A stretch of DNA of 54,125 bases, from NCBI GenBank assembly GCA_903828645.1, contig CAIKNA010000133.1:1-54125 (forward strand), given 5' to 3'. Of this stretch, positions 11,001 through 24,490 are shown one piece after another. The notes beneath the pieces were generated by a model. The model did not search any database. It was given only the letters and a program-made list of their open reading frames with translations, and had not been told where the DNA came from. Numbering within the stretch: the stretch's first letter is position 1; the number at the start of each line of letters is the position of its first letter. The translations under genes were made by a program, and so were the position numbers. Source of the stretch: an uncultured Bacteroidales bacterium (GTDB taxonomy: Bacteria; Bacteroidota; Bacteroidia; Bacteroidales; FEN-979).

Positions 11001-12680
11001 GTCGGACTTGTCGGGTGCAATAAGCAGCACATTGTATGGACGGTTGTCACCAACAAGGAAAACATTTTTAATGCCGGGAACTTTGTAGAATTTTTTCTCA
11101 ATGACCTGGGGGGCGACAGTTTGGCCACGGTTGTTTTTATAGATGTCTTTTACCCGGTCGACAATCTGGTAATACCCATCCCGGCCAATCTTAAAGACAT
11201 CGCCTGTTGAAAGCCAAAAATCTTTTTCTTCAGAAACCGGGTAGGGGATGATTTCTCCGGGTCCGGCCACTTCGAGGTAACGGCCAATATAATGTCCGCT
11301 GAGTTGGAGTTCAGAACCGCCTGCAAGCCTGGTCTGAACGCCCGGCAGCGGAATTCCGACAGTGAAATCCTTGTATTTTCCGGGGGGTGTCATGGTGATT
11401 CCGCCTGTGGCTTCGGTCATGCCAAAACCGCTGTTCAGATGGATGCCATAATTGTTAAAGAACCTGAATACCTCCGGATCAAGATAACCGGCGGCCGAGA
11501 GGCCCCAGTGCAATCTGAGTCCGACGATATCCCTGACAGCTTTTTCCTTCAGTTCGCGGCTTTCGATATTGCTGATCTTCTCCTGGCATCGCTCAAACAG
11601 TTCCTGCCACCTCAAAGGGATACTGATAAAACCGGAAGGATTCATTTTTGGGAATAATGAAAGCAATGTTTCCGATGAGGTGTTGCCGGCAAAAATATAG
11701 GTGCCATTCCAGAATATGGCGCCAGTCATTTCCAGGTACCTGCCAAAAGTGTGAAAAAGAGGGAGGTAACAAAGGAATATTTCATCCCCGACCTCAGGGA
11801 GGGAGGCTGCCCGGGCAAACCGCTTTGATACAATGTTGTAAACAGAGAATGACACTCCTTTTGGCAGACCTGTACTTCCTGATGTGAACATGGTCGTGGC
11901 GACCTGGTTGTTTGAATACAAAGGCAGGCCTCCAAGAATTACATCCGTATCCCAGCGGGATGTTTTTTTACATTCCTCGACCAGGTAGGGAATGTTACGG
12001 GTTTTGGGTGTAGCAGCCTGTAAAGAAAATATGGTGAACTTTGTCTCCGCTTTTTCCAGGATTTTCTGCAAAACCATCAGCCGCTCTTCAGAATCGGCCA
12101 AAGCGATGTTGATTTGCAATTCATTGAAAATGGGAAGCAATACATCGATCTTGAAATGAGGGCTGAGTGGTGTGTCGTAAATGTTGAACATCAGACAGGC
12201 CAGGTCGGTGCAGGCCCCTTCCAGGCAGTTTTCGGTATAAAAGGCAACCGTTGGTGCCGCCCCGGCAGTTTTATAAAACACACTTGCTATTTCACGAAGA
12301 TGGCGGTAAATCTGCTCGTATGTCCAATCTATGGCAACTGCCGACGACATGTCTTTGAACAGGATATGGCCGGGATGTTCAGCAACCCGTTGCTCCATCA
12401 TGTCGCGAAGACCGTAGTTGGTATGCTGCAGGATGCGGAAGACAACTTCAGACCATCTTTTCCGGCAGCCATCGGTTTTCAGAGCCTTGAGAAAATACGG
12501 TTTTTTTGTAACATCCAGGAAGTTGAACCAGCTGGACCGCTGCAATGTTTCAGCCTGGTTCCCTTCGAAGATGAGCTCTGTTGCCTCAAGGATTTTCAGG
12601 GCTGCCTGGTGGTCTGTTTGACCTGCTCGGTCATTGGTGGTCCATTTTTCCAGAAGAGATTCTAATTCCAGCATATGCAA
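8085..12680 (-). CDS. Acyl-adenylate ligase / unassigned region / GNAT acetyltransferase fusion
   Basis: This 1531-residue protein has three parts. After an N-terminal extension of about 85 residues comes an ANL-superfamily domain (about 85-630): TSGSTGLPKG (P-loop-like A3 motif), GFGMTEATGG (A5), WLSTGDVFKIG (A7), YYQIVDRVKD (A8) and LTPKGSFNRKT with the catalytic-type Lys near the end. This layout is that of long-chain acyl-CoA synthetases. A middle of about 750 residues (about 640-1390) is mostly helical and matches no family I recognise; a stretch with QYIGGLTAWDKI and later PGAVSPSNVAI looks faintly like a degenerate kinase fold. The last 140 residues are a GNAT domain with the acetyl-CoA loop LQGKGIASRMIENF. 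No signal peptide is seen. Probable activity is fatty-acid activation coupled to an acyl or acetyl transfer; the substrate is unknown. ATGs at 12680 and 12674 are both possible starts. Confidence 0.85.
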   Translation of the reverse strand: MHMLELESLLEKWTTNDRAGQTDHQAALKILEATELIFEGNQAETLQRSSWFNFLDVTKKPYFLKALKTDGCRKRWSEVVFRILQHTNYGLRDMMEQRVAEHPGHILFKDMSSAVAIDWTYEQIYRHLREIASVFYKTAGAAPTVAFYTENCLEGACTDLACLMFNIYDTPLSPHFKIDVLLPIFNELQINIALADSEERLMVLQKILEKAETKFTIFSLQAATPKTRNIPYLVEECKKTSRWDTDVILGGLPLYSNNQVATTMFTSGSTGLPKGVSFSVYNIVSKRFARAASLPEVGDEIFLCYLPLFHTFGRYLEMTGAIFWNGTYIFAGNTSSETLLSLFPKMNPSGFISIPLRWQELFERCQEKISNIESRELKEKAVRDIVGLRLHWGLSAAGYLDPEVFRFFNNYGIHLNSGFGMTEATGGITMTPPGKYKDFTVGIPLPGVQTRLAGGSELQLSGHYIGRYLEVAGPGEIIPYPVSEEKDFWLSTGDVFKIGRDGYYQIVDRVKDIYKNNRGQTVAPQVIEKKFYKVPGIKNVFLVGDNRPYNVLLIAPDKSDSIFKALQGDNKAEYFHQIVMAANTDVAPYERVINFTLLDRDFSAEKGELTPKGSFNRKTIETNFREIIESLYQSTIVRIDTGDFTVSIPKWFFRDLGILETDIWYDRHRLINRRNGCKLFIRKIQGKWIQIGHLKYHVDSTNLDMGLLTRQPKIWTGNPALIAFCPVKEGWDLPLKDISASAYLPGFKRLDEKNFPVIRSIRDQQLLEVNYLIFRTYFLNFTEAYKATDELGKILIQAEPRLAVVIRYRLEALAYHPNEEIRCLAYRLILLKAPNPEDIQNMPSFIGSGLSFLNETSIREIASSNFGKHRLDALKQRLYWYRTHLSWPASKKHRQAFGDVLEMLYNFAVLHLEYYVPVRAELSRWILHKEDLYLSKLAEKYFYSLAGVFEKEIEKRSNRNNVATWKSKLVFEHGISDTEKKRVAKIFKSSAFLKESIILTFNERDFDLDDVSDKGIWILRLLAFKEFKHYRLSINTKDGKHFDLHMVMSENPDFRPRPETFYWLASLAGFPYGAAVAPMLGSSRPNLGVLTTQYIGGLTAWDKIRELSEIHRSSGFIKGHAWKKIFIKSFAVFFKAWHHSGYQIVPGAVSPSNVAIPEMDFRESAVILSLAGWSGYKNTLSLIEPMLQDFYCKTASIYPWCSNQLEITWIFDACIEALGKEDAEKFLGKLKVDIKSKSLTCFDAKEMRSHLDHYLRTSIKQYYLPVALFSAIDQYQEWYKMNPLTTAAAREQTCIELLELYKLQQEAELVRYYLYRHTYFSDAKGDIRAAFDKLLARMAEQPGGLAIQLIELSDLQSDLHDPEDKTIFTRMVFPRLQGEQGFDFLKVGENRQEHVVVRFSFEDQSGRKYILREPVAAREIGQLYQLFFRENYPKEITDNDHQFILTDQNEKIVGGITFRYIEDHNILLDGLVVTSSLQGKGIASRMIENFFASMAARGIEVIKAHFLFGNYYLKHFFEVDQKWGALIKKLK

Positions 12681-12708
12681 ATTGGATTGAAGACAAACTA
12701 TTCTGACT

Positions 12709-12736
12709 CAAAGATACGATATGTAAAGTGATTCAA
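12709..12736 (-). promoter_or_regulatory. Promoter of the ligase/GNAT fusion gene
   Basis: On the - strand TATCTTTG (12709-12716) matches the Bacteroidota -7 consensus TAnnTTTG. A TTG (12734-12736) lies 17 bases upstream, slightly close for a -33 element. The ATG at 12680 follows the box by 28 bases. Confidence 0.55.
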
Positions 12737-12740
12737 CACA

Positions 12741-13607
12741 TCAGGTATTCAACAACCGGTCAATGATCAGCGAAAGCATGACGATCATCATAAAGAGATT
12801 GGCTGCGAAAAATATCAGGCGGTAACGCATGGTGGTGACAATGAATAGCTGATAAGCCATGAGGAGCAGCAATGCGCCATTTAAGCCGATGATGGCATAC
12901 CCCAGTGAGGGGAGATGAAGGATGTTAAAATAAACAAGCATGATCGCGGCCCCTGATGAGGCAATCATCCATCCCATTACCACTGTTTTGATTTGGAATT
13001 CATTGAAAAAATCGGTCATTACCGGGAATCCTGCCTGGCGGTATTCGTGGCCGTATTTTAGTGTCAGCAGCCAGAAATGCGGCATCTGCCAGATGAAAAG
13101 GAAAAATGCCAGGAAGATGGCTTCAGGGGCAAGAAGCGGTCCGCCCCCGGCTGTCCACCCCATGAAAATCGGGATGGCCCCGGTGAGGGCCCCGGGAACG
13201 ACTGCAAAGGCTGTTTTTCGTTTCAGATAGGTGTAAATTCCGTTATACCAGATAAGATTGGCGAAGCCAAGGATGAAACAAACCGGAGGAGCATAATAGA
13301 GCAGGATCAGCATTCCACCAATGATGAAGATCATGGCGATTCTCAATGCTTCTGCAGTGCTGATGCGGCGTGAAGGTAGCGGGCGTTTCCGTGTACGCCC
13401 CATCTGTTCGTCATAGGGCCATTCCTGGTATTGGTTGAACGCGGAGGCACCTGAAGCCAGCATGAAAATACCTGCGACAGGAATAAGTGCAGCGAACGAG
13501 AGTTTAACCGGACTCAGCACCAGGGCTGTAAAAGCAGTAAATGCAACAGCCAGTGAAACAGGGAACCTTGTTAATGTAAAAATTACTCGGAAAGTGGATG
13601 TTTGCAA
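12741..13607 (-). CDS. ctaB: Protohaem IX farnesyltransferase (haem O synthase)
   Basis: The 288-residue polytopic membrane protein of the UbiA prenyltransferase family attaches a farnesyl group to haem B, giving haem O for the oxidase encoded in the same operon. The signature region reads NQYQEWPYDEQMGRTRKRPLPS, with the Asp and MxRTxxRP that bind the prenyl diphosphate and Mg. About nine hydrophobic segments follow, as expected for CtaB/CyoE. It is the last gene of the operon, 14 bases after the subunit II gene. No ctaA (haem A synthase) is present in the window, so whether the oxidase carries haem A or O cannot be decided here. Confidence 0.93.
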   Translation of the reverse strand: MQTSTFRVIFTLTRFPVSLAVAFTAFTALVLSPVKLSFAALIPVAGIFMLASGASAFNQYQEWPYDEQMGRTRKRPLPSRRISTAEALRIAMIFIIGGMLILLYYAPPVCFILGFANLIWYNGIYTYLKRKTAFAVVPGALTGAIPIFMGWTAGGGPLLAPEAIFLAFFLFIWQMPHFWLLTLKYGHEYRQAGFPVMTDFFNEFQIKTVVMGWMIASSGAAIMLVYFNILHLPSLGYAIIGLNGALLLLMAYQLFIVTTMRYRLIFFAANLFMMIVMLSLIIDRLLNT

Positions 13608-13621
13608 AGGCTAAGCGGAGT

Positions 13622-14527
13622 TTACTTGATACTCTTGAAATAGTCGATGATTTTGTTCATTTCATCGTCGGTAACAATGCCTTTGTAAGGCTTCATAATC
13701 CCCTTCTGGTAACCCACGACCACATCTTTATCAGGATCATAAACAGATGATTTGATGTACGCCTCGTCTACCGTAACCGACCGCTCTGTGCCGTTTGTCA
13801 TGACCTTTTCCGTTTTGCCGAAGAGCCCTTTGAACGAGGCGCTGACAATTTTTGATCCGTCAATGGAATGGCAGCCTGTACAGGCGTTTTTCTTCAGGAT
13901 AACAAGCCCTTCAGGTTCATTCGATTTTTCGGGTAATGCTTTCAGCCAGGCAGCATATTCGGTTTCGGAAACCACCTTTGTTTTGGTTTCCATATAGGAA
14001 TGACGCAGTCCGCAATACACCGTACACAGAACATCGAATTCCCCTGCCTGCTGGGCAATGAACCACATGTAATTCTTTTTACCCGGAACAGCATCTTCCT
14101 TGATACGGAACGCAGGAATATAGAGGCTGTGAATGACATCCTCGGAGCGAAGATTAAGCTTAACCGCCTTATTTATTGGGACCACCAGTACGGGCGATTG
14201 CTTGCCCCCTTCATATTCAAAGGTCCAAACCCACATTTTCCCGATGACGGTAATCTGAATGGCATCTTTTGGGACTTTACGCTCCGGACTGAATGCTACA
14301 TATCCATAATAAAACATGAGCAACACCAGGATCAGAGGAATGGTGATCCATGTTATTTCAAGGATGTTGTTGTCTTTGATCTGTATGGCATGCGGATGCC
14401 TTTTGTGGTTGTAACGGTATACAAAATACAACATCACCGATGTAATTCCAACCAGGAAAAACAGACTGATCCCGAAAATGACCTTAAAGGCCAGATCAAC
14501 ACCTTCAACAAAATTTGAAGCACCCAT
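13622..14527 (-). CDS. coxB: Cytochrome c oxidase subunit II with fused cytochrome c domain (caa3 type)
   Basis: The 301-residue protein has two N-terminal membrane helices (about 15-37 and 57-78), then the CuA cupredoxin domain. The CuA ligands are visible: His133 in VIHSLYIP, then Cys168, Cys172, His176 and Met179 in CTVYCGLRHSYM. A C-terminal class I cytochrome c domain follows, with haem motif CTGCH (216-220) and a likely Met ligand in KGIMKPYKG. The fusion makes this a caa3-type oxidase, accepting electrons on its own tethered cytochrome. There is no lipobox signal peptide. Upstream lies a GATTTAC heptamer array separating it from the subunit IV gene. Confidence 0.96.
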   Translation of the reverse strand: MGASNFVEGVDLAFKVIFGISLFFLVGITSVMLYFVYRYNHKRHPHAIQIKDNNILEITWITIPLILVLLMFYYGYVAFSPERKVPKDAIQITVIGKMWVWTFEYEGGKQSPVLVVPINKAVKLNLRSEDVIHSLYIPAFRIKEDAVPGKKNYMWFIAQQAGEFDVLCTVYCGLRHSYMETKTKVVSETEYAAWLKALPEKSNEPEGLVILKKNACTGCHSIDGSKIVSASFKGLFGKTEKVMTNGTERSVTVDEAYIKSSVYDPDKDVVVGYQKGIMKPYKGIVTDDEMNKIIDYFKSIK

Positions 14528-14534
14528 ATAATTG

Positions 14535-14580
14535 AATTACAAATTACAAATTACGATTTACGATTTACGATTTACGATTT
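14535..14580 (+). repeat. GATTTAC heptamer array 1
   Basis: Three AATTACA-like units grade into GATTTAC units in exact seven-base phase, ending GATTT. It fills part of the 135-base gap between the subunit II and subunit IV genes. A different near-repeat of GTTAAC with eight-base spacing follows at about 14588-14610. Confidence 0.9.
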
Positions 14581-14662
14581 TCAAGATAGTTAACTTGTTA
14601 ACTGTTTAACCGGAAGTCATTGTGTTTGTCCGATGGTTTACCGGTTCACTTTTTCACCCTGG

Positions 14663-14947
14663 TTATCTGAACAGGTAATCCGAAAGCGTAAACAAAATTA
14701 CCAGTACGTAGATGGCCAAAACCATGCCTATGAATACCCGGAAAAGGGATGACTCGAATTTAAGGTGCATGAAGTTTGTCAGCACAAGGTACGCCTTTAC
14801 CGAGGCAATCACCAGGGCTACCAAAACCGTGAGCGCCGATAAATCGATCCAGGTCACGGTAATTGTCACGAAGGTTAAGGCCAGCAATGTGATCAGAATC
14901 CATAAATGAGTTCTGTAGGAAGTTATATGAACAGTTTCGGGATGCAT
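14663..14947 (-). CDS. Cytochrome c oxidase subunit IV (prokaryotic type)
   Basis: The 94-residue protein has three predicted membrane helices and the conserved core KAYLVLTNFMHLKFE of the prokaryotic COX4 (CtaF/CyoD-like) family. The family stabilises assembly of subunits I and III. Small size, the HLKFE motif and position between subunits III and II support the call. Both flanking gaps hold GATTTAC arrays, so it is separated from its operon partners more widely than usual (135 and 90 bases). Confidence 0.9.
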   Translation of the reverse strand: MHPETVHITSYRTHLWILITLLALTFVTITVTWIDLSALTVLVALVIASVKAYLVLTNFMHLKFESSLFRVFIGMVLAIYVLVILFTLSDYLFR

Positions 14948-14954
14948 GTTTTCA

Positions 14955-14995
14955 AATTTACGATTTACGATTTACGATTTACGATTTACGATTTT
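14955..14995 (+). repeat. GATTTAC heptamer array 2
   Basis: AATTTAC followed by four exact GATTTAC units and a GATTTTT tail. It lies in the 90-base gap between the subunit IV and subunit III genes. Confidence 0.92.
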
Positions 14996-15037
14996 TCAAA
15001 TTGCTGACGTGTTTTCCCCTTCAGTTGTTTTCTTTTA

Positions 15038-15631
15038 CTATGTAATCAGGTACAACAGCGGAAACAGGAATATCCAGATCAGGTCGACGAGATGCCAGTA
15101 AAGGCCTCCATTCTCAAGCAGAACATACCTGTCTGCATTGATTGTTCCCGACTGTACTTTTACCATAGCAATCGTGAGGATGATGCCCCCGACAACAAGA
15201 TGGAACATGTGCAGCCCGGTCATGAAGAAATAGAGGCTGAAGAACATCACCTGGCCATGGCTCAGGCTGACCATCAGATCGGAACCAGGATAGAGACCGA
15301 TGTGAATTTTGTGTCCCCATTCAAAATATTTGTTGACCATGAACACTGCCGCACAGAGAAGGGTGATAAATAACAGAATAACGGCAAGTCTGCGATTGCC
15401 TTTTTGCACTGCCGTAATCGACATCGCAACAGTCGCGCTGCTCACCAGGAGCACGACCGTGTTGATTGTTCCGATAAAGGCATTCAGGTGGTGGGCTGCC
15501 TGGTGGAATTCGTTTGAATAACTGCTGCGCATAATCGCATAAACCAGAAAAAGCCCTCCAAACAGGAGTATCTCCGTAAAAATAAAGACCCACATACCCA
15601 ATTTAGCACCAATGTCGTCGCGATGTTCCAT
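15038..15631 (-). CDS. coxC: Cytochrome c oxidase subunit III
   Basis: The 197-residue, five-helix membrane protein is the short form typical of caa3 and quinol oxidases. Diagnostic features are GMWVFIFTEILLFGGLF at the N-terminus, a central SLSHGQVMFFSLYFFMTGLHMFHL with the conserved Gly-His-His pattern, and YWHLVDLIWIFLFPLLYL at the end. Subunit III stabilises the core and proton uptake. The start MEHRDDIGAK is the first Met of the frame and puts the first helix at the expected place. GATTTAC arrays flank it on both sides. Confidence 0.96.
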   Translation of the reverse strand: MEHRDDIGAKLGMWVFIFTEILLFGGLFLVYAIMRSSYSNEFHQAAHHLNAFIGTINTVVLLVSSATVAMSITAVQKGNRRLAVILLFITLLCAAVFMVNKYFEWGHKIHIGLYPGSDLMVSLSHGQVMFFSLYFFMTGLHMFHLVVGGIILTIAMVKVQSGTINADRYVLLENGGLYWHLVDLIWIFLFPLLYLIT

Positions 15632-15636
15632 GTTTC

Positions 15637-15676
15637 AATTTACGATTTACGATTTACGATTTACGATTTACGATTT
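15637..15676 (+). repeat. GATTTAC heptamer array 3
   Basis: AATTTAC, four exact GATTTAC units and a GATTTT tail, in the gap between the subunit III start and the subunit I stop. It is the third array inside this operon. Confidence 0.92.
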
Positions 15677-15704
15677 TGCTCGCCAGTCCTTATGTGGCTG
15701 GCTG

Positions 15705-17315
15705 TTATTTATAGTCATAGGGTCCTTCATTCAACCCCATTTCCGGCATTACCTCGAAATTTTCAAGCGGGGGGGGAGAAGGAATCCTCCATTCAAAGGT
15801 TGTTCCTCCCCATGGATTATCGGGTGCTTTGGCGCCTTTTTTACTGAAGAGTGTGATCAGCATGATGATAAACCCGATCGCAAGCAGTATCGCTCCAAAG
15901 AAAGAAATTTGCTGACCGAGGGTAAACTGGGGAAGGTAATCAAAATACCTGCGGGGCATACCCATGATTCCAATGATGAACTGAGGGAAATAGAGCAGGT
16001 TGAACCCTGTGAAAAGGAAGACAAAAGACCAGTTCGCCATTTTAAAGTTATACATCCTCCCGAACATCTTCGGGTACCAGTAATAGACTGCCGCGAAGAA
16101 GGCAAACCCGACCCCTCCAAAAACAATATAGTGGAAATGGGCAACAACATAGGCCGTGTCGTGGACATGAATATTGGTAGCCAGGGCTCCAAGAGACAAC
16201 CCGGTCATGCCGCCGATCATAAACAGGAAGATAAATCCGAGGGCAAACAGGAAAGGTGGTTTTACCGAAATGGAACCTTTGTACATGGTCGCAACCCAGT
16301 TGAAAACCTTGATGGCACTGGGCACTGCAACCAGGAAGGTGAGAAGCGAGAATACCCAGCGTGCAGTCGTGCTCATCCCGGAAGTGTACATGTGATGCGC
16401 CCACACAAAATAACCCACCAGTGCAATGGCCATGCTGGAAATGGCGATGGCTTTGTAGCCGAAAATTCTCTTTTGCGCGAATACCGGGATGATTTCGGTG
16501 ATGACACCCATGGCAGGCAAAATCATGATGTATACGGCAGGATGGGAGTATATCCAGAAAAGATGCTGGTAGAGCACCGGGTCACCTCCCAGGGAAGGAT
16601 CGAAGAAGCCGATGCGAAACCACCGCTCGGCAATAATCATCAGCAGCGTGATCCCGACAATTGGTGTGGCCAGAACCTGGATCCATGCAGTTGCGTAAAG
16701 CGACCAGGGAAAGAGTGGCATTTTGAAAAAAGTCATCCCCGGTGCCCGCATGCGATGCATGGTTACGATGAAGTTCAACCCTGTGAGAATGGAGGAGAAT
16801 CCAAGCACAAAAGCCCCGAAAACAGCCGCAACAACATTGGTGTGGGTTTGAATGCTGTAAGGGGCATAAAACGTCCATCCGGTATCGGGGGGGCCGTTGC
16901 CCATGAATTGCGAAGAGAGGGCAATGATGGCTCCCAGCACATAGAGGTAAAAAGAAAACAGGTTCAGTCTTGGAAATGCAACATCTTTGGCGCCAATCAT
17001 GATCGGCATTGAAAAATTTCCGAATACGGCAGCCAATCCGGGAATGACAACCGTAAAGATCATGATGATGCCGTGAATGGTGAATAGCCCGTTGTAAACC
17101 TGCGGACCGTAAAATTGCTGCCCGGGATAGAAGAGCTCGATGCGCATCAAAACACCGAGGAGCCCCCCGACACTGAAAAACACCATCATGGCATACATGT
17201 ACATCAACCCGATCCGTTTGTGGTCGGTCGATGTAAGCCAGGCCATCAGGCCTTTATATTTGCCGGTATCAACAAGGTAACTAGGCTCAGGTTGATGCCT
17301 CTTTTGTTCTGTCAT
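15705..17315 (-). CDS. coxA: Cytochrome c oxidase subunit I (A2-type)
   Basis: This is the catalytic O2-reducing subunit of a haem-copper oxidase with about 12 helices. Haem and CuB ligands are visible: the His in FTIHGIIM, the YSHPAVY block, the His-His in VWAHHMYT and the pair in VVAHFHY. The usual Glu of GHPEVY is Ala here, with Tyr-Ser just before the His; this YS signature marks the A2 subtype seen in caa3 oxidases. The tyrosine of HPAVY that cross-links to a CuB His is kept. I chose ATG 17315 ([13 protein letters not shown]) because it follows the SCO stop by one base; a longer frame to 17360 would add 15 residues overlapping the SCO gene. The C-terminus ends NEGPYDYK. Confidence 0.97.
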
Positions 17316-17316
17316 A

Positions 17317-18114
17317 TTATATGTTTTGTTTTTTGGATTTCTTTCCTGATGATCTGACAATTAAAATAATAAACAGTGCGACCGCAAAAAATATGATGAT
17401 GGTCGCGGTAATCTTCGTTACCTGTAACGTGTATTTCCTTCCCTGGGGGTCGTAACTGAAACAATATTCCAGTACGCGGTTGATGGTAGGTCTCGACTGG
17501 CCTTTCTGGGCTTCGATAAGGGCCATTTTTACATCAAAGGGCAGGAAAGATGTTCCATAGAGGTAACGCGTAACCTTGCCTTCGGGACTGAGAACCAGGA
17601 TGCAGGAGGGATGCATGAAATCATTGCCGGTCCGTGTGAAGTTGTATCCGATGGCATGGGTCAGCATCCGTATGTTTGCACTGTCGCCGGTAAGGTATAC
17701 CCAATGTTCAGCGTGTGGCTTGCTGTGTGCGCGTAGAAAATTCTTTTTCTTCTCCACGGAGGCCGCAGGGGTGTCGTCATAGTTGAAACTTACCGTAATT
17801 ACCTGGTAATCTTTGCCAAGTTCCAGCCCGATTTTTTCGATAACATCCGAAACCCCTGAAAGCAACTGGGGGCAAATTCCCGGGCAGTCGTAATACACCA
17901 GCGTAAGGATTGTGGGTTTGGTAATTAGTGATTTCAGCTGAACAGGATTGCCCTGTTCATTGTTGAAAGTGATCTTCGCCGGGATAATGGTATCGAGATG
18001 TTCAACAATGCCGACCTCCTCTGCCACACCGTCAACCTGTGCTATCACAGCCGGGGATAAAAAAACAGTAAAAACCAACAGAAAAATACCTAAGCCAAAA
18101 ACTTTGTTTTTCAT
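17317..18114 (-). CDS. SCO1/SenC copper chaperone for the oxidase
   Basis: This SCO-family thioredoxin-fold protein delivers copper to the CuA site of subunit II. The copper motif [10 protein letters not shown] gives the CxxxC pair, and the distal His is in DFMHPSC. A signal peptide or anchor starts at [11 protein letters not shown], so ATG 18114 is preferred; an upstream Met at 18147 would add 11 polar residues. Unusually, a C-terminal membrane helix ([17 protein letters not shown]) and a Lys-rich tail follow, so the protein is tethered at the C-terminus as well. It lies 41 bases after the DoxX-like gene and one base before the preferred start of subunit I. Confidence 0.93.
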
Positions 18115-18155
18115 AATTGTCAAATTGTCAACCGCCACAAACCTCAATCTTCAAA

Positions 18156-18560
18156 TTAATCTGAATTGTCTTCTTTGTAAATTCCTGCAATCATAAGTGA
18201 ACCTCCCATCAGTGCTGTGTCTTTGAGCAACTCGATCAAGGCCATGTTGGCAGTTGCAGGTTCGAACATGCCGGGGATATGTATCGTACAGATGAAAATA
18301 AGCAGCAGAAGGGCCAGAAGGAGGCAGGCAATCTGGATGAATTTTTTCGAAATAATGGCGATGCATGCAGCGACCAGTGCAAGGCCGGTGATGATTACGG
18401 TAAAACCGCCACCCGGGATAAATGAACTCACCATCCCAACATAGTAATTGTACATGAAGAAGTGATTCATTCCCATGATGCCGAATGGCAAAGCGAAAAG
18501 AATTCTTCCAATTGTTGCCAGATGTTTCATTGATCCTGTTTTTTTTGCCGATTCGTGCAT
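18156..18560 (-). CDS. DoxX-like small membrane protein
   Basis: The 134-residue protein has four hydrophobic segments and the DoxX-family pattern: ATIGRILFALPFGIMGMNHF near the start, a central Gly-rich GGGFTVIITGLALV, and LKDTALMGGSLMIAGI near the end. DoxX-type proteins are often linked to quinone or thiosulphate:quinone metabolism, but the role of this branch is unknown. It sits between the monohaem cytochrome and SCO genes in the respiratory operon, so a role in assembly or quinone handling is plausible. The start may be MHESAKK (18560) or the internal Met of MKHLATIG. Confidence 0.8.
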   Translation of the reverse strand: MHESAKKTGSMKHLATIGRILFALPFGIMGMNHFFMYNYYVGMVSSFIPGGGFTVIITGLALVAACIAIISKKFIQIACLLLALLLLIFICTIHIPGMFEPATANMALIELLKDTALMGGSLMIAGIYKEDNSD

Positions 18561-18570
18561 TCCCTTTAGG

Positions 18571-19470
18571 TTATCCGTTACTTAATCTCTTAATTTTCAA
18601 TATGGAATAGATGATGTAAAAAATAAATCCCCAGACGATGATAACTGAAAGGGTATAGGTAAGCAGGATCCAGACCGGAGCTTTATCCCTTGTCGACCAC
18701 ATTGCACGGGTTGCGGTGAGGCTGGGCTTGTCGGTGGGTACCCCGATGGCCAGGGTTGCATTTGCCGGAGTTGTTTTCATGATGCTTTTCGGATCATTGA
18801 CCATGGCAGAAACTTCAACATATCCATCTTTATTGCCGGGGAAGTCGGCGGGAAATTCAAAAAGAGCCTGGCCTTTGGCATTGGTCGTTTTTACATCGCC
18901 TACCTGCATTTTGCCAAAGTAGCGTTTAACATACAGCATTATCTCCACACCGGATGCCAGCCCGGCCTGGCCGTCTTTCAGTTGTTCGCTTGCGGTAACA
19001 ACGATTTTTTTCATCGGTTCGCTGTATTGCATGGACAGGGTTACGATCCTCCCGGTGAATGCAGCTTTAGCAACAGGGTTGGGCTGGATGTATTTCGGGT
19101 TGAAGCTGCGCAGGTAAGCGATCACCGACCAGCGGTCGTCCTCAGGCAGAATGTTGCGAAATTCAGGCATTGGTACTTTCCCGGTGGTGATCCGGTAGAA
19201 AATTTCACCGTCGGTCTGTTTCTGAGCTTTCTCCTTTGACAGGTCGCCCGGCGGAGGAGTCAGTTTTGCCCAGTTGTCCTTGCCGGGGAGGCCATGACAA
19301 GACTGGCAGTTCTTCATATAAAGTTGTTCACCCTGTTTCTGCATATCGGGGGTGAATTTTAACGGGGCGACCACCGCTTTCTGATCATCAGGAACCACCC
19401 AGGTTTGAGCAGCGACCCTCGTCCCGAGAGAAAAAAGAAAGATGATTATCAGTGTTTTGTTGAAACGCAT
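18571..19470 (-). CDS. Membrane-anchored monohaem cytochrome c
   Basis: The 299-residue protein has a signal peptide (about 1-22, ending RVAAQ), a class I cytochrome c domain (about 40-130) with haem motif CQSCH (55-59) and a likely Met ligand in GKVPMPEFRN. It continues into an extra beta-rich domain (about 140-265) of a kind I do not recognise and ends in a membrane helix (about 270-293) with a short basic tail. It follows the NrfD-like gene by 21 bases. Position and topology suggest it takes electrons from the Fe-S/NrfD module and passes them to the cytochrome domain of subunit II. It resembles the cytochrome subunits of alternative complex III in role rather than in clear sequence identity. 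Confidence 0.9.
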   Translation of the reverse strand: MRFNKTLIIIFLFSLGTRVAAQTWVVPDDQKAVVAPLKFTPDMQKQGEQLYMKNCQSCHGLPGKDNWAKLTPPPGDLSKEKAQKQTDGEIFYRITTGKVPMPEFRNILPEDDRWSVIAYLRSFNPKYIQPNPVAKAAFTGRIVTLSMQYSEPMKKIVVTASEQLKDGQAGLASGVEIMLYVKRYFGKMQVGDVKTTNAKGQALFEFPADFPGNKDGYVEVSAMVNDPKSIMKTTPANATLAIGVPTDKPSLTATRAMWSTRDKAPVWILLTYTLSVIIVWGFIFYIIYSILKIKRLSNG

Positions 19471-19491
19471 AGTTCCTTGATTATTTCTGGG

Positions 19492-20823
19492 TTAATCAAA
19501 TTTAATATGTTCAATGCCCTTTTCCCTTGCAGTCTCGTGCAGTGGTATCACGGGAAAAAACTTCGAAATAAGTGTGATGATGATGAGAACGAGGATGAAC
19601 GGAGCGATCGTAATGAGGGTTTCGATCAGCGTTGGTGAATAATGAACGAAGTTCTGCGGAACATGCTGTATGGGGAGAAACGGATGTTCCTGGGTCGGGA
19701 TGACGATGATGTACCGCTTAAACCAGGCAGCGATCAGCACTGCAATGGAGATGAGCATGATTGGCAATGGTTTCCGGAAACGGCGGAAAAGCATGAAGAG
19801 TATGGGTAAAACCAGCCCGCCAAGCTGGACAACCCAGAACAGCAATGCATCCTTCCCGGCGAAAAGTTCCTGCAGGTGAACGGCGTCGGCACGTTTCATT
19901 TTATATCCTGGAACGAGGAATTCATTGATGTTGAAGTAGAGATAAACCAGGGAAACCGTTGCAAGAACTTTTCCCATGTTGTTGAAATGCATGTCGGTAA
20001 GATAATCCTGGAGTTTGTAATTCTTGCGGAAGAAGAACATGGCGATGATGACTGCGGCAGAACCGGCTACAAACGCACCTGAAACGAAATAGGGGCCAAA
20101 GACCGTACTGTCCCATCCCGCACGCGAAGTGACGGCAAACAGCCATGAAGTGACCGTATGGATCGAAAGTGCGGCAGGGATCAGGAGTATCAGCAAAATG
20201 CGGATGGAACGATTTATGATTTTGTTCTGTTCAGGTCTGTCGGTAAAATTGAGGGATAATGATTTGTAAACGGGTTTAAGCCAGGATGGCAAAGAGGCCA
20301 CTTTACGGTGTATGACCGCCATGTCGGCAATAAGCGGCAGGAACAACAGCAGCAGGCTCAGGACAAAATAGGTTGTGATCACCGTAACATCCCAGAGGAT
20401 GGGCGACTGGGGCCGGGCATAAATGAAGACATAGGCAAGTCGTTCCGGTCGGCCCATGTCGGAAATAATGATCAGTCCTGCTACTGCTGCGAAAGCCACT
20501 GCGATGGTTTCTGCGATCCGGGTTATTGGCGTGAGCCATTTCATGCCGATCAGCCCCAGCACTGCGCTGATGAGCATCCCGATGAGGCTGGCTGCCACAA
20601 AGAAAACAAAGTTGGCAAGGTACAATCCCCAGGTGACATAATCACGGATGCCAGCCACACCCAGTCCTGTGCGAAGCTGCATCGAATAGGCATAAAGGCA
20701 AACCGCCAGTGAAACAGTCAAAAAGCCCATCCATACCATGAACCCTTTGTTGATCCTGATATGGTGTGTGAGATCGCTTGTGATTTTATCGAAAGTCAGG
20801 TTGTTATCATCCATGGTCATCAT
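19492..20823 (-). CDS. NrfD/PsrC-family quinol-interacting membrane subunit
   Basis: The 443-residue protein has about ten predicted helices and the NrfD/PsrC pattern: RDYVTWGLYLANFVFFVAASLIG, then IISDMGRPERLAYVF and, later, YFVSGAFVAGSAAVII. The family exchanges electrons with the menaquinone pool next to an Fe-S partner. Such subunits include ActC and ActF of alternative complex III. The start overlaps the stop of the upstream Fe-S gene by four bases, implying translational coupling and a tight complex. Three nearby ATGs (20823, 20820, 20814) cannot be told apart. No molybdopterin catalytic gene accompanies it. Confidence 0.92.
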   Translation of the reverse strand: MMTMDDNNLTFDKITSDLTHHIRINKGFMVWMGFLTVSLAVCLYAYSMQLRTGLGVAGIRDYVTWGLYLANFVFFVAASLIGMLISAVLGLIGMKWLTPITRIAETIAVAFAAVAGLIIISDMGRPERLAYVFIYARPQSPILWDVTVITTYFVLSLLLLFLPLIADMAVIHRKVASLPSWLKPVYKSLSLNFTDRPEQNKIINRSIRILLILLIPAALSIHTVTSWLFAVTSRAGWDSTVFGPYFVSGAFVAGSAAVIIAMFFFRKNYKLQDYLTDMHFNNMGKVLATVSLVYLYFNINEFLVPGYKMKRADAVHLQELFAGKDALLFWVVQLGGLVLPILFMLFRRFRKPLPIMLISIAVLIAAWFKRYIIVIPTQEHPFLPIQHVPQNFVHYSPTLIETLITIAPFILVLIIITLISKFFPVIPLHETAREKGIEHIKFD

Positions 20824-21791
20824 ACTTTTTCAGGTGTTGCATCTTTGGCCTCTTCAAACGGGAAAAGACGGTTCTTTGGGGGAAGGTAGTAGACCCGGGG
20901 TTTGGTACCCAGTTCAGGCATCAGCTGGTAACCTCCATTGTCGCGAAGAAGTTTGCTCAATCTGACGGTTTCCTTGGTAGTGCCGTTTGTAACGGCATCT
21001 TCGTTCTCATCGCCGAAATAATAGACGCTGTTCGGACAGGCTTCAACACAGTACGGCAATTTACCTTCACGCAGGCGGTCGGCGCTGAAGAGGCATTTTG
21101 AGATTGTCCCAAGCTTTTGGGGAACATTCAGTTCCACATTGTATTCCTCTCCCTGGTGATTGGCGGCATCTTTGGGTTCGATCCAGTTGAAAATACGGGC
21201 TGAATAGGGGCAGGCAGCCATGCAAAAACGACAACCGATGCAACGGTCGTTTTCGATCAGCACAATGCCGTCCGGGCGTTTGTACGTGGCGTCGACCGGG
21301 CATACCGCCACGCAGGGGGGATTGTCGCAATGCTGACAATTTTTGGGCATGTTATAGGGCGCAGTTCCGGGAGTATCCTGCATCTGCAGGGTATTCATGT
21401 GGTACTGCTCAGGGCGAAGCTGATGTGCACCCTGGCAGGCATTGATGCATTTGCGTGCATTGCGGCATTTCGAAAGATCTGTTACCATGACCCAGCGCCG
21501 GCCGGGAATACCTTCACGGCCAAGAGTTTCGTGGAGTTCTTTCCCGTTTTTTTCAAGCGCTTTGATTTCAAGAGAGTCCACCTGTACCAGTTTGCCATCC
21601 TGGGTGAGCAGGACCTTCTGATCGCCTGAAACCTCTTTTTTTGCTTCAAAAATATGTCCGGAATATAGCGCGGCTGCACCTGCGGCAACGCCAACCCCGG
21701 CCAGCCCGAGGTTTTTCAGGAAGTCGCGGCGCGAGGAACCTTTCTGATTCTCAGATTCATTGTTTGAATGTGGAGTGTTGCTGTCGTCCAT
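20820..21791 (-). CDS. Tat-exported Fe-S protein (DmsB/NrfC-like)
   Basis: The 323-residue protein starts with a Tat signal (SSRRDFLKNLGLAGVGVAAG). Four Cys clusters follow in the order of the four-cluster electron-transfer subunits: Cys109, 115, 119; Cys152, 155, 160, 164; Cys184, 187, 190, 194; Cys233, 248, 252. Clusters II and III are complete. In cluster I the second Cys is Ala112, and in cluster IV it is Ser236, leaving 14 of the usual 16 Cys. In this fold motifs I and IV build two clusters together, so two centres would each have three Cys. It is the first gene of the operon and coupled to the NrfD-like gene. The partner catalytic subunit normally present in such enzymes is missing here. 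Confidence 0.93.
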   Translation of the reverse strand: MDDSNTPHSNNESENQKGSSRRDFLKNLGLAGVGVAAGAAALYSGHIFEAKKEVSGDQKVLLTQDGKLVQVDSLEIKALEKNGKELHETLGREGIPGRRWVMVTDLSKCRNARKCINACQGAHQLRPEQYHMNTLQMQDTPGTAPYNMPKNCQHCDNPPCVAVCPVDATYKRPDGIVLIENDRCIGCRFCMAACPYSARIFNWIEPKDAANHQGEEYNVELNVPQKLGTISKCLFSADRLREGKLPYCVEACPNSVYYFGDENEDAVTNGTTKETVRLSKLLRDNGGYQLMPELGTKPRVYYLPPKNRLFPFEEAKDATPEKV

Positions 21792-21970: not shown

Positions 21971-24490
21971 CTAAAAAGGAAAGATCATCGAAATCTTATA
22001 GGCGAAATTATCCCCGGTGTTGTCGAATGAGTAAGGGCCCCACCGGTAAAATGCACCGATGCCTATTGTGTAAATCCTGAGGTTGATCAGGTTGTTGATG
22101 AGCAGGCCGGATTCATAATAGCCAAGGTTCATCACTTTCGGTTTCAAAGAAATGTAAGCATAATTGCCGGGGTGGTCAAGCCAGCCGAACCCAATATTCT
22201 GAGAGATGGCAAATTCGGGATGGAACCAGGCCTTTCCCTTGAAAAGAAGGTATCCGAAATCATGATACAGGTAAAGGGAGGTGTATTTGCTGGAAAGGAA
22301 TTCATTGTTTCGCATGGTACCGAAACTGTAAGGGGCGAACAGCGTGACCAGCCGGTAGCTTGAGGGTGCGTAATAGAGGTTGCTTGCCGGAATCGGCTGG
22401 TCGACATATCCCCCGTTGAATTGCACGGTCAGTTTCCCAAGATATTTGATGTTAAATGTTTTGCGTATCTTCAAATCAAAACGGTCATAAGAATATTCTC
22501 CTCCGAGGAAGTTCTGGATTCCCCGGGTGTATTCGAACCAAACCACAGGGAATTTTGTACCCAGCGAGATTTTATTGTTGACTGTCTGGATGAACTTCTC
22601 TCCATACGCCCATTTGAACCCGGCAGTTATCGTTGTGAAATTGAAGGTTCTCATAAGCAGCGTGTCATTTCCTTCAAACGTCGCAAGGTCGTCGGTGGTT
22701 GATTTTTTGAAATTATTGGAGATGCCCACATTGAATAAAACATATTTCAATGCCCTGAACCCTGCGGAAAAGTTATAACTCCGGGTCCGGTCGAATTTCT
22801 TCAGCATCAGTAACCGGAAGTTTCCGGAAAGAATTGATTCGTAATCAACCGGGAAACTCACGCCACCCGATTCAACCAAATCGTAAAAGCCGGAGGCTGC
22901 CAGGGTGACATCATGACGCCGGTTTACCAGGAAACTTACATCTCCGCCGTACTTTGAAGTGGATGCGCCAAATGCGTATTGATAAAATCCCCCGATTTTG
23001 AACCATTCCGACAGGTGGTCGTTGGTATGGAGACCTGCACCAAGCACAAGTCCTTCATAGGTATTGTAATTGAGAAAGCGGTTGATGTCGATGTCGACAG
23101 GTCCCCATGGAATGCGGCCGGTCATCAGGGTTTGGAGGGTTTTGGCCATCTGGTCGAAATTGTTGGCAGCACCCACGCTGTCGAGTACTTTATATGTCTG
23201 GCGGTCTTTCCGGCTCAGGCTGTCAACACGGTACTGGTTCCAGAATGGTTCACTTCGGGAGGTGGCATCCTTGTCGACCTCCACATCCAGGTGGCTGAAT
23301 TCGCGCCGTACAAGTTCGGGGTTGAGTACAATGTCGCGGATGTAACTCCGGCCACTTCCAACCGCTTTGTACTTTCCAATACGCATGTTGTTGAAAGCCA
23401 CATCGGTATTGAGTTGGACGGGAAACCACTGCACTCCGTCTACCAATTCATACAACTGGTGAATCCTGATCATGAACCCTCCGTTGTTCGGGTAGGGTTC
23501 GGCGGAGACATTCTGAATGGCCCAGTGATGGCTGTTGATGGAAACGATACCTTTCATGCCATCGAAATTGGTTCCTTTCCTTGGCCTGAACGAGATGATG
23601 AAGACCGTGTCTTTTCCAACATAGGTGGTGTCTTCAATTTTAAAGAAATATTTGCTGAAACTCCCGCTCCCGATCGGATTGATATAATCCTTCATCATGA
23701 TGGAGATGAATGGTTTGTAAAAGGAGAATGACTGGATCTGCGTGGCCAGGAAAACAAGGATCGGATCTTTAAAACCCGACATCTTTGTTGCGATCACTTT
23801 GTTGTAATTTTTGTCGGGTGCCATGAATTTCCGTTTCGTCACATTCTCCATCAGGAAAAGATATTGATTTTTGATCAGCTTTTCAATCTGGAGGCTGGTT
23901 GAATCCTTCATCGAAGTATCAGTTTTCACCGAGTCGGCTTTCATGGAAAATCCGATCTCCAAGCCTCCCTTTGAATTCTGTGGTGCGGTATTGTCGACAA
24001 GGGCTGAAAAATCACCTTTAAGGGTTGTGTCATTATCGGCAGTGAAGACGGTTTTATCATAGGCCGTATATGAAAACGTGTTCACCTTCTCGGGGTCGTT
24101 GATGTCGCGGTTTTCGATTGCATTGCGGATGATGCGATGGGCGGGGTTAACACCTGGCAGAATTTCCACTTCCTGCAAATCAATCTCCTTCCGGGTCATC
24201 TCGATGAGCAGTTCCCTGGTACGTCCGCCTGGTGTAACTGTAATAGGGTCATACCCTACATAACTGAGCCTGATGGTTCTCACCGGTTGAGATGATGTGA
24301 GTTTGAATTTGCCGTCGATGTCGGTGGTTCCTCCCGTATTGCTGCTGTTGACGACGATGTTTACAAAGGCAAGCGATTCCCTGGTAGCGGAGTCAATGAC
24401 CTTTCCGGTTACGGAATAGGTATCCTGGGAAAAGCAGTATGCGGAAATTATAATAAAGACCATGAGGACTGGCAGAATGCGGTGGGTCAT
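21971..24490 (-). CDS. DUF5686 outer-membrane protein with carboxypeptidase-like regulatory domain
   Basis: The 839-residue protein has a signal peptide (about 1-21), then a CarboxypepD_reg-like beta domain (about 25-110, VTGKVIDSATRESLAFVNIV, TTDIDGKFKL, SYVGYDP). The rest matches the DUF5686 family: NPAHRIIRNAIENRD, then a Tyr-rich segment, and a long C-terminal series of amphipathic strands ending in MIFPF, with a terminal Phe typical of outer-membrane barrels. The family's function is not established; TonB-linked or transport roles have been suggested only by its fold. It is divergent from the RlmL-like gene, with 71 bases between, and is not part of the respiratory operon, whose promoter lies downstream. 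Confidence 0.88.
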   Translation of the reverse strand: MTHRILPVLMVFIIISAYCFSQDTYSVTGKVIDSATRESLAFVNIVVNSSNTGGTTDIDGKFKLTSSQPVRTIRLSYVGYDPITVTPGGRTRELLIEMTRKEIDLQEVEILPGVNPAHRIIRNAIENRDINDPEKVNTFSYTAYDKTVFTADNDTTLKGDFSALVDNTAPQNSKGGLEIGFSMKADSVKTDTSMKDSTSLQIEKLIKNQYLFLMENVTKRKFMAPDKNYNKVIATKMSGFKDPILVFLATQIQSFSFYKPFISIMMKDYINPIGSGSFSKYFFKIEDTTYVGKDTVFIISFRPRKGTNFDGMKGIVSINSHHWAIQNVSAEPYPNNGGFMIRIHQLYELVDGVQWFPVQLNTDVAFNNMRIGKYKAVGSGRSYIRDIVLNPELVRREFSHLDVEVDKDATSRSEPFWNQYRVDSLSRKDRQTYKVLDSVGAANNFDQMAKTLQTLMTGRIPWGPVDIDINRFLNYNTYEGLVLGAGLHTNDHLSEWFKIGGFYQYAFGASTSKYGGDVSFLVNRRHDVTLAASGFYDLVESGGVSFPVDYESILSGNFRLLMLKKFDRTRSYNFSAGFRALKYVLFNVGISNNFKKSTTDDLATFEGNDTLLMRTFNFTTITAGFKWAYGEKFIQTVNNKISLGTKFPVVWFEYTRGIQNFLGGEYSYDRFDLKIRKTFNIKYLGKLTVQFNGGYVDQPIPASNLYYAPSSYRLVTLFAPYSFGTMRNNEFLSSKYTSLYLYHDFGYLLFKGKAWFHPEFAISQNIGFGWLDHPGNYAYISLKPKVMNLGYYESGLLINNLINLRIYTIGIGAFYRWGPYSFDNTGDNFAYKISMIFPF

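Follow-up and report, generated by a model that had tools for sequence, protein, structure and literature searches.

The window analysed here, the whole of a 54,125-nucleotide stretch (contig CAIKNA010000133.1, assembly GCA_903828645.1) of an uncultured Bacteroidales bacterium, carries at positions 12741-21791 an operon of ten genes, which are arranged head to tail on the minus strand. In the order of transcription these encode an Fe-S protein, an NrfD subunit, a cytochrome c, a small membrane protein, SCO, CoxI, CoxIII, CoxIV, CoxII and CtaB, separated by intergenic gaps of -44 to +135 bases. The first three proteins, hereafter termed the trio, very probably constitute a minimal menaquinol:cytochrome c oxidoreductase, which takes the place of alternative complex III (ACIII, ActABCDEF) upstream of a caa3 oxidase. 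Pfam and NCBIfam profiles, by which the operon genes were identified, together with sequence motifs and a structure model, confirmed the observation of the first-pass annotation that a Tat-exported Fe-S protein, an NrfD protein and a tethered monohaem cytochrome c precede a full oxidase set in one ten-gene operon, in which the canonical ACIII parts ActA, ActB, ActD and a second NrfD are not encoded. Its interpretation as a reduced ACIII-like module is partly supported: the trio occupies the ACIII position, shares an oxidase cassette with it and has an NrfD whose PDB matches are all ActC, but it is not simply a cut-down ACIII, since ActC forms a clade of its own and the Fe-S protein belongs to a separate family.

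The trio complements ACIII across the order

The NrfD sequence of the window was used to search 149 genomes of the order, 75 of which matched at E 1e-20; the trio was called in the 52 genomes with an NrfD score of at least 490 bits, a line set by eye. COX2 with a CuA site was detected in 50 and ActD in 15 of the 149 genomes. Among the 50 COX2 genomes, 41 carry the trio, 11 ActD, two both and none neither, and all nine without the trio have ActD. Among the 99 genomes without COX2, the trio is found in 11, ActD in four and either of them in 14. Within the home family the trio accompanies COX2 in 31 of 31 genomes. Outside this family, in a set of 106 genomes with one genome per family, which reduces relatedness without removing it, one of the two donors is present in all 19 COX2 genomes versus 13 of the 87 others (Fisher 7.8e-13). 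These counts support the conclusion that the trio stands in the ACIII position and complements ACIII across the order. The exclusion is not strict, as both systems occur together in G021, G079, Marinifilum flexuosum and Ancylomarina euxinus. Cytochrome b was matched in 24 and 27 of the 149 genomes by two models, the higher count including every listed match, weak ones too. Neither ActD nor bc cytochrome b gave a match in 25 of the 41 genomes with COX2 and trio, and the same holds for 35 of the 52 trio genomes. The absence of a gene from a single genome is weak evidence, because incomplete assemblies can hide genes, but the overall pattern of complementarity is not weak.

In 34 of the 41 genomes the trio NrfD lies at most 8 kb from COX2, on one contig and in the same orientation; COX2 is downstream in 33 of these 34. 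In 12 of 40 retrieved stretches, from the genus, the family and other families of the order, the trio is followed by CoxI, CoxIII and CoxII; many of the remaining stretches reach a contig edge, and some show other neighbours or other NrfD groups. A second set comprised named loci, the best 80 of 579 matches, labelled Bacteroidales, Bacteroidetes, Paludibacter, Marinifilum, Ancylomarina and others, with some labels (Bacteroides fragilis, Rikenella) that look loose. Much of the gene order that the first-pass annotation had proposed to look for in related genomes recurs here, more often than chance would explain: Fe-S protein, NrfD and cytochrome c follow each other in 71 of these best 80 loci, and SCO, CoxI, CoxIII and CoxII are located on the same strand in 51 of the 66 loci with at least 6.5 kb downstream. 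Two of the other 15 keep the cassette as well: in L118 the cytochrome and SCO share one reading frame, and in L123 CoxIII was not called. The trio is followed by cbb3 and then caa3 genes in L171, L188 and L190, by cbb3 genes only in seven loci (L160, L161, L164, L165, L169, L178 and L189) and by nap-like genes in L179. The NrfD homologues of the cultured Marinifilum and Ancylomarina are 58-60% identical to that of the window. The gene caller keeps the longest frame, so that a gene underneath a longer frame of the opposite strand is missed (CoxIV in L045, CoxIII in L123, Fe-S protein and NrfD in L070 and L210). The single 558-aa open frame in L118 (positions 11354-13030), which joins the tethered cytochrome to SCO, represents either a gene fusion or an assembly error. 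In L061 (9816-11141) and L062 (9930-11243) a trio-type NrfD without an adjoining called Fe-S gene is situated behind two transporters, presumably nitrate transporters.

ACIII genes also precede this oxidase cassette in other families: within the order in L200 (ActB-F seen), L201 (ActA-F) and L204, the contig of which ends after ActF, and in a different class in L108. In L203, CoxI-III-IV-II stand behind ActA-F with neither SCO nor CtaB called, and in L197 (M. flexuosum) and L198 (A. euxinus) the cassette is divergent from ACIII. A tree of 35 CoxI rows unites 18 trio-linked rows with one unlinked row in a clade (99/98), and the rows linked to ACIII are spread over more than one group. Three rows in which trio, cbb3 and caa3 genes make up one run group at another place (100/99), with L108 next to them at 83/77. 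The label trio or ACIII requires two changes on this tree, the deeper forks of which are modestly supported (92/79, 88/80) and the root of which is the midpoint only, so that the order of arrival of the donors is not fixed. The simplest reading is one slot with two donors, one of which replaced the other before a standing oxidase. ActB of L104 and L105 is split, its molybdopterin-like part and its Fe-S part being encoded by two genes. Each of these stretches contains one NrfD, and in L104 cytochrome b and Rieske genes adjoin; this is a possible intermediate form.

The NrfD subunit

The predicted quinol-binding membrane subunit (443 aa, 19492..20823, minus strand), the gene of which overlaps the Fe-S gene by 4 bases, is NrfD/ActC-like, scoring 107 bits with PF03916 (cut-off 25.8) and displaying nine hydrophobic peaks. 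Four distinct PDB sequences match it at E up to 0.1, all of them ActC. The quinone-site residues Ser140 and Asp122, the latter at the acidic/His position of TM2, are present in 34 of 34 trio rows. When these rows were compared at the 23 quinone-site and channel residues of ActC given in PMC8076601, ten residues were identical throughout, two in the quinone site (S164 and D169), five in the N-side channel (R119, E122, Y176, D191 and H247) and three in the P-side channel (Y270, E326 and R395). For QrcD, PMC13059093 describes the Ser as essential and does not support a gating role of the Arg, so that the trio may or may not pump protons.

In a careful NrfD tree of 48 rows, seven ActC rows form a 100/100 clade that excludes the trio. 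Apart from L074, which falls outside at an unsettled place, the 12 oxidase-type rows come together at 83/88. A clade of the 12 oxidase-type rows with ActC alone, a grouping named after the tree was seen, was rejected (p 1.6e-5). Descent of the trio NrfD from ActC was rejected in view of the ActC clade, this test and the Fe-S tree. The tree does not separate a sister position of trio-type NrfD to Act from one to DsrP (p 0.38). An assignment to the Nrf/Hyb type was likewise rejected, HybB and HmcC standing apart on long branches. E. coli NrfD was included only in a first tree, where its end branch measured 5.71, and left out of the second; PsrC was not included.

The Fe-S subunit

The Fe-S protein (323 aa, 20820..21791, minus strand) is a Tat-exported periplasmic protein with four Fe-S motifs and a match to Fer4_11, a dicluster family. 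Its Tat-type motif, RRDFL in the window, is found as RRxF in all 91 distinct homologues, a set derived from 103 rows of two overlapping locus sets (at least 290 aa, selected at a minimum identity of 55% to the protein of the window). In the latter protein, Ala112 takes the place of the second Cys in motif I and Ser236 that of the second Cys in motif IV. Ala occurs at motif I in 90 of the 91 homologues, the one exception being Glu in L179, and Ser at motif IV in all 91. Motifs I and IV we take, from the fold, to hold the outer cluster pair. Accordingly placed ligand changes predict that the two outer clusters are altered in the trio, which may raise their potential for the hand-over of electrons to cytochrome c.

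In a 67-row alignment, all 16 Cys are kept in DsrO (five rows), NrfC, HybA, HmcB, the split ActB of L104 and L105, and the trio-family rows L076 and L077. The oxidase-type trio rows combine Ala at motif I with Ser at motif IV, the truncated row L111 being uninformative for motif IV, and the wider Bacteroidota family is changed at motif I only, except for L076 and L077. Motif III is intact in the trio protein, and seven full-length ActB rows have Thr for its second Cys. According to PMC5928083, FeS1, which adjoins the quinol, is the sole [3Fe-4S] cluster of ActB; since R. marinus ActB has CIGT at motif III, this motif holds the quinol-side cluster. The idea that the trio protein copies the [3Fe-4S] cluster of ActB was rejected, as its ligand changes lie in other motifs. 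The Fe-S tree unites the trio family in a clade (98/95), with the oxidase-type rows inside it at 100/100 (11 rows, L074 included), separate from ActB2 (100/97) and DsrO (100/99) and beside both.

The cytochrome and its tether

The cytochrome (299 aa, 18571..19470, minus strand) consists of a signal, a c domain with one CxxCH, a beta sandwich (residues ~142-240) and a C-terminal membrane helix, which spans residues 266-298 in the structure model (46 sequences, mean pLDDT 87.5). The haem domain is present in all 46 cytochromes scanned. By fold, ActE of the Roseiflexus ACIII is the best match (E 1.4e-5), followed by soluble c552 (4.0e-5); by sequence, c552 is nearer than ActE (1.5e-10 vs 1.1e-7), so that these matches do not establish a special relationship between the c domain and ActE. 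The tether of beta sandwich and helix is homologous to a stand-alone protein encoded beside paralogous Fe-S/NrfD pairs (hhalign probability 99.9, E 2.6e-31). These stand-alone proteins also match the extra part of a 739-aa NrfD on contig C285 of the source genome (L009:7672-9891), in which NrfD is joined to the Ig/TM tether domain. One lineage has the tether fused with the cytochrome and another has it fused with NrfD, which speaks for a single complex containing these pieces.

Comparison with known systems

The trio resembles ACIII in the periplasmic-side quinol site of NrfD, the four-motif Fe-S domain, the monohaem c subunit and the clustering with caa3. In contrast to ACIII, its operon lacks pentahaem ActA, ActB1, ActD, ActF and a second NrfD, the Fe-S ligand changes are located at motifs I and IV instead of motif III as in ActB, and NrfD falls outside the ActC clade with H139 and D253 replaced. 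There is no multihaem gene in the operon that could correspond to a pentahaem or hexahaem ActA, the genome not having been searched with an ActA model. The molybdopterin-like B1 domain is absent from the 323-aa Fe-S protein, again without a genome search with an ActB model; ActB measures ~1000 aa in L083, L084, L200 and L201.

A similar set of a Tat Fe-S protein, NrfD and a cytochrome c is found in DsrOPJ, and Asp and Leu take the positions of the ActC quinone-site residues H139 and D253 both in the trio and in six DsrP rows. Although both fall short of the cut-offs, the best NCBIfam names are DsrO, with 187 of the required 200 bits, and DsrP, with 125 of 350. Together with the reduction of menaquinone by the CD pair of Qrc, as stated in PMC13059093, this would fit a DsrJOP-like or Qrc-like module that works in reverse, reducing menaquinone with a periplasmic donor and merely co-transcribed with the oxidase. 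Such a role is very improbable. Membership in DsrOP is ruled out by the sub-cut-off scores and by the Cys pattern, five aligned DsrO rows keeping all 16 Cys, two of which are missing in the trio. The trio cytochrome is monohaem and tethered, in contrast to triheme DsrJ; Arg370 of NrfD is shared with ActC, whereas the six DsrP rows have Lys; and none of DsrM, DsrK and DsrJ is among the ten operon genes. Moreover, a reverse module leaves the complementarity with ACIII unexplained.

NrfBCD and NrfCD modules (Qrc, Nhc, Mcc) are comparable in that an Fe-S/NrfD pair joins quinol and c-type cytochromes. Their partners are multihaem proteins, with five haems in NrfA and NrfB, six in QrcA, eight in MccA and nine in NhcA, and by the activities listed none of the Nrf, Qrc, Nhc and Mcc modules feeds an oxygen reductase (PMC8076601, Table 1). 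The same table contains no NrfD complex composed only of an Fe-S protein, NrfD and a monohaem cytochrome. For Melioribacter, PMC3534657 notes that multihaem cytochromes can receive electrons from NrfCD pairs that lack a molybdenum subunit. Further related systems are the FeS-NrfD-Ig/TM-cytochrome modules of other Bacteroidota and of contigs C183 and C285 of the source genome, which share the Fe-S family (98/95), a monohaem partner and the homologous Ig/TM tether. They differ in that the tether either has a gene apart from that of the cytochrome or is fused to NrfD, and in that the motif IV Cys is kept; no caa3 cassette lies in the stretches seen, multihaem genes stand beside some of them, and a test for DUF5777 found it in C183. 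The NrfCD building block is known; we found no description of it as a dedicated substitute for complex III that has a single-haem partner and these ligand changes. No description of the trio was found in the open-licence PMC literature; the closed literature was not searched, so that an unpublished status is not shown.

Other partners of the trio and respiratory genes of the source genome

The trio is not confined to caa3 loci. M. flexuosum carries one trio before a cbb3 cluster (L160), a second before molybdopterin-oxidoreductase genes (L199) and ACIII beside caa3 (L197), and in L074 the trio stands beside nar-like genes. The molybdopterin oxidoreductase was confirmed by Pfam in L199 and L179; the names nap-like (L199 and others) and nar-like (L074) are our assumption from gene layout. 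The occurrence before cbb3, nap-like and nar-like genes marks the module as a portable link from quinol to cytochrome.

The source assembly (G000; 409 contigs, 5.1 Mb, completeness 100, contamination 4.57) contains four NrfD genes: that of the operon, two trio-type paralogues on C285 and C183, each with its own Fe-S protein and monohaem cytochrome, and one of HmcC type. ActD gave no match in the whole genome, and none of its NrfD proteins is of ActC or ActF type; searches with ActA or ActB models were not part of this comparison. Three genes encode haem-copper subunit I, namely the operon caa3, a cluster on C208, which from its layout we assume to be cbb3-like, and a gene on C12, presumably like quinol nitric oxide reductase. 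A bc-type complex with a multihaem partner is encoded on C188 (L012:5153-9234), with an ExtP-like cytochrome b of 420 aa, a Rieske protein with CTHLGC and CPCH, and a protein with eight CxxCH motifs and a TPR-like C-terminus. The C183 locus (L010:6853-13403) encodes an Fe-S protein, NrfD, an Ig/TM protein, a b561-type protein, a heptahaem cytochrome, a monohaem cytochrome and a DUF5777 beta-barrel protein, a set that could serve as an electron route to the outer membrane.

Several of these observations weigh against a dedicated complex III replacement. The cytochrome b-Rieske-octahaem cluster on C188 contradicts the expectation of the first-pass annotation that the genome would lack bc genes. 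The same annotation held that a bc complex, combined with a grouping of the trio among polysulphide- or nitrite-reductase subunits, would speak against it; such a grouping was not seen with the Nrf and Hyb subunits tried, in trees without a polysulphide reductase row. A cytochrome b model matched in 15 of the 52 trio genomes, 11 of the 52 lack COX2, and L153 and L184, among the 66 loci, have no oxidase called nearby. Marinifilum and Ancylomarina carry ACIII beside caa3 and the trio beside cbb3, hence the trio is not tied to caa3. Within NrfD, eight of the 23 ActC residues (H139, D253, H97, T100, R114, T125, Y323 and E394) are identical in none of the 34 trio rows, and five are partly kept (S103 in 29, S180 in 33, R196 in 11, D197 in six and E338 in 12). 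Finally, no activity, potential or structure is known for any of the homologous trios encountered here.

The partners listed above and the C188 cluster would be accounted for if the trio were a general quinol dehydrogenase of the periplasmic cytochrome pool, which supplies cbb3, Nap, Nar and others with caa3 as one customer, and if the bc-type cluster were the real complex III of the source genome. We consider this possible but rather doubtful: all nine COX2 genomes without the trio have ActD, 25 of the 41 with the trio match neither ActD nor cytochrome b, and the trio is present in every COX2 genome of the home family. Cytochrome b, moreover, is matched in only part of that family and in only the 15 trio genomes mentioned.

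The oxidase cassette and neighbouring genes

The oxidase genes of the operon are all encoded on the minus strand. CoxI (15705..17360) matches COX1 and contains YSHPAVY, not GHPEVY, by which motif we take it to be A2-type. CoxIII (15038..15631) matches COX3, and CoxIV (14663..14947) matches COX4_pro and exceeds the cut-off of the caa3 subunit IV model. CoxII (13622..14527) matches COX2 and combines the CuA motif CTVYCGLRHSYM with a C-terminal haem c domain (CTGCH). With CuA, a haem c fused to subunit II and subunit IV, the enzyme is a caa3-type oxidase. CuA oxidases take electrons from a cytochrome c-type donor; carrying the CuA motif, this oxidase needs a donor of that kind and is not a quinol oxidase.

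The gene for a small hydrophobic membrane protein of 134 aa (18156..18560), called in only some relatives, gives no family match over cut-off; its product is presumably DoxX-like. SCO, an SCO1/SenC copper-insertion protein (17317..18147), has an uncertain start codon and as called overlaps CoxI by 44 bases. CtaB (12741..13607) is a UbiA/haem o synthase-like protein, the score of which (177 bits) is under the NCBIfam cut-off of 210. The presence of the trio in one gene run with SCO and CtaB might point to a factor for oxidase assembly or redox protection instead of an electron donor. This is most improbable in view of the conserved quinone-site and Fe-S residues, the haem domain retained in every cytochrome scanned, the alternation with ACIII, and cbb3-linked loci such as L160, which have the trio with neither SCO nor CtaB called in the stretch.

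Directly behind the operon (window 8085-12680) lies the gene of a 1531-aa protein with an N-terminal AMP-binding enzyme domain and a C-terminal GNAT acetyltransferase domain. In front of it, on the same strand, a DUF5686/carboxypeptidase-regulatory-like protein is encoded at 21971-24490, and a gene of similar length (817-861 aa) occupies the same pre-operon position in L045-L048.

Proposed electron path and its meaning

For the preferred reading of the trio as a minimal menaquinol:cytochrome c oxidoreductase, the gene order and its conservation, the complementarity with ACIII and the conserved sites are observed, and from these a path can be proposed. Menaquinol would be oxidised at the periplasmic side of NrfD (Asp122, Ser140, Asp145), and electrons would enter the Fe-S protein at the motif III cluster to travel along the chain to the outer clusters. 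The ligand changes at Ala112 and Ser236 make [3Fe-4S] or Ser-ligated outer clusters likely. From there the tethered monohaem cytochrome c would receive the electrons and deliver them, by way of the haem c and CuA of CoxII, to oxygen. The direction of this flow, the cluster types, the docking order and any movement of protons by NrfD are inferred. A wider proposal, which we put forward only tentatively, is that the trio would join bc complexes and ACIII as a third class of quinol:cytochrome c oxidoreductase, in which the Fe-S chain is the whole path without a multihaem wire or a molybdoenzyme relic, high-potential [3Fe-4S] clusters are shifted to the outer end, the trio forms a quinol-oxidising supercomplex with caa3, and protons are translocated via the single NrfD.

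According to PMC5928083, the role of clusters FeS2-4 in ACIII is elusive, and a transfer of electrons from the Fe-S wire to an external carrier is left as a possibility. In the trio this wire is the only apparent path, which turns the question into a test. If the proposed function is true, it would explain how the quinone pool is linked to the oxidase in Bacteroidales with COX2 but no matched bc or ACIII (25 of the 50 COX2 genomes). Many Bacteroidales seem to feed their oxidase by a small complex of three proteins and not by the large known ones, which would offer a simple system for questions of electron transfer.

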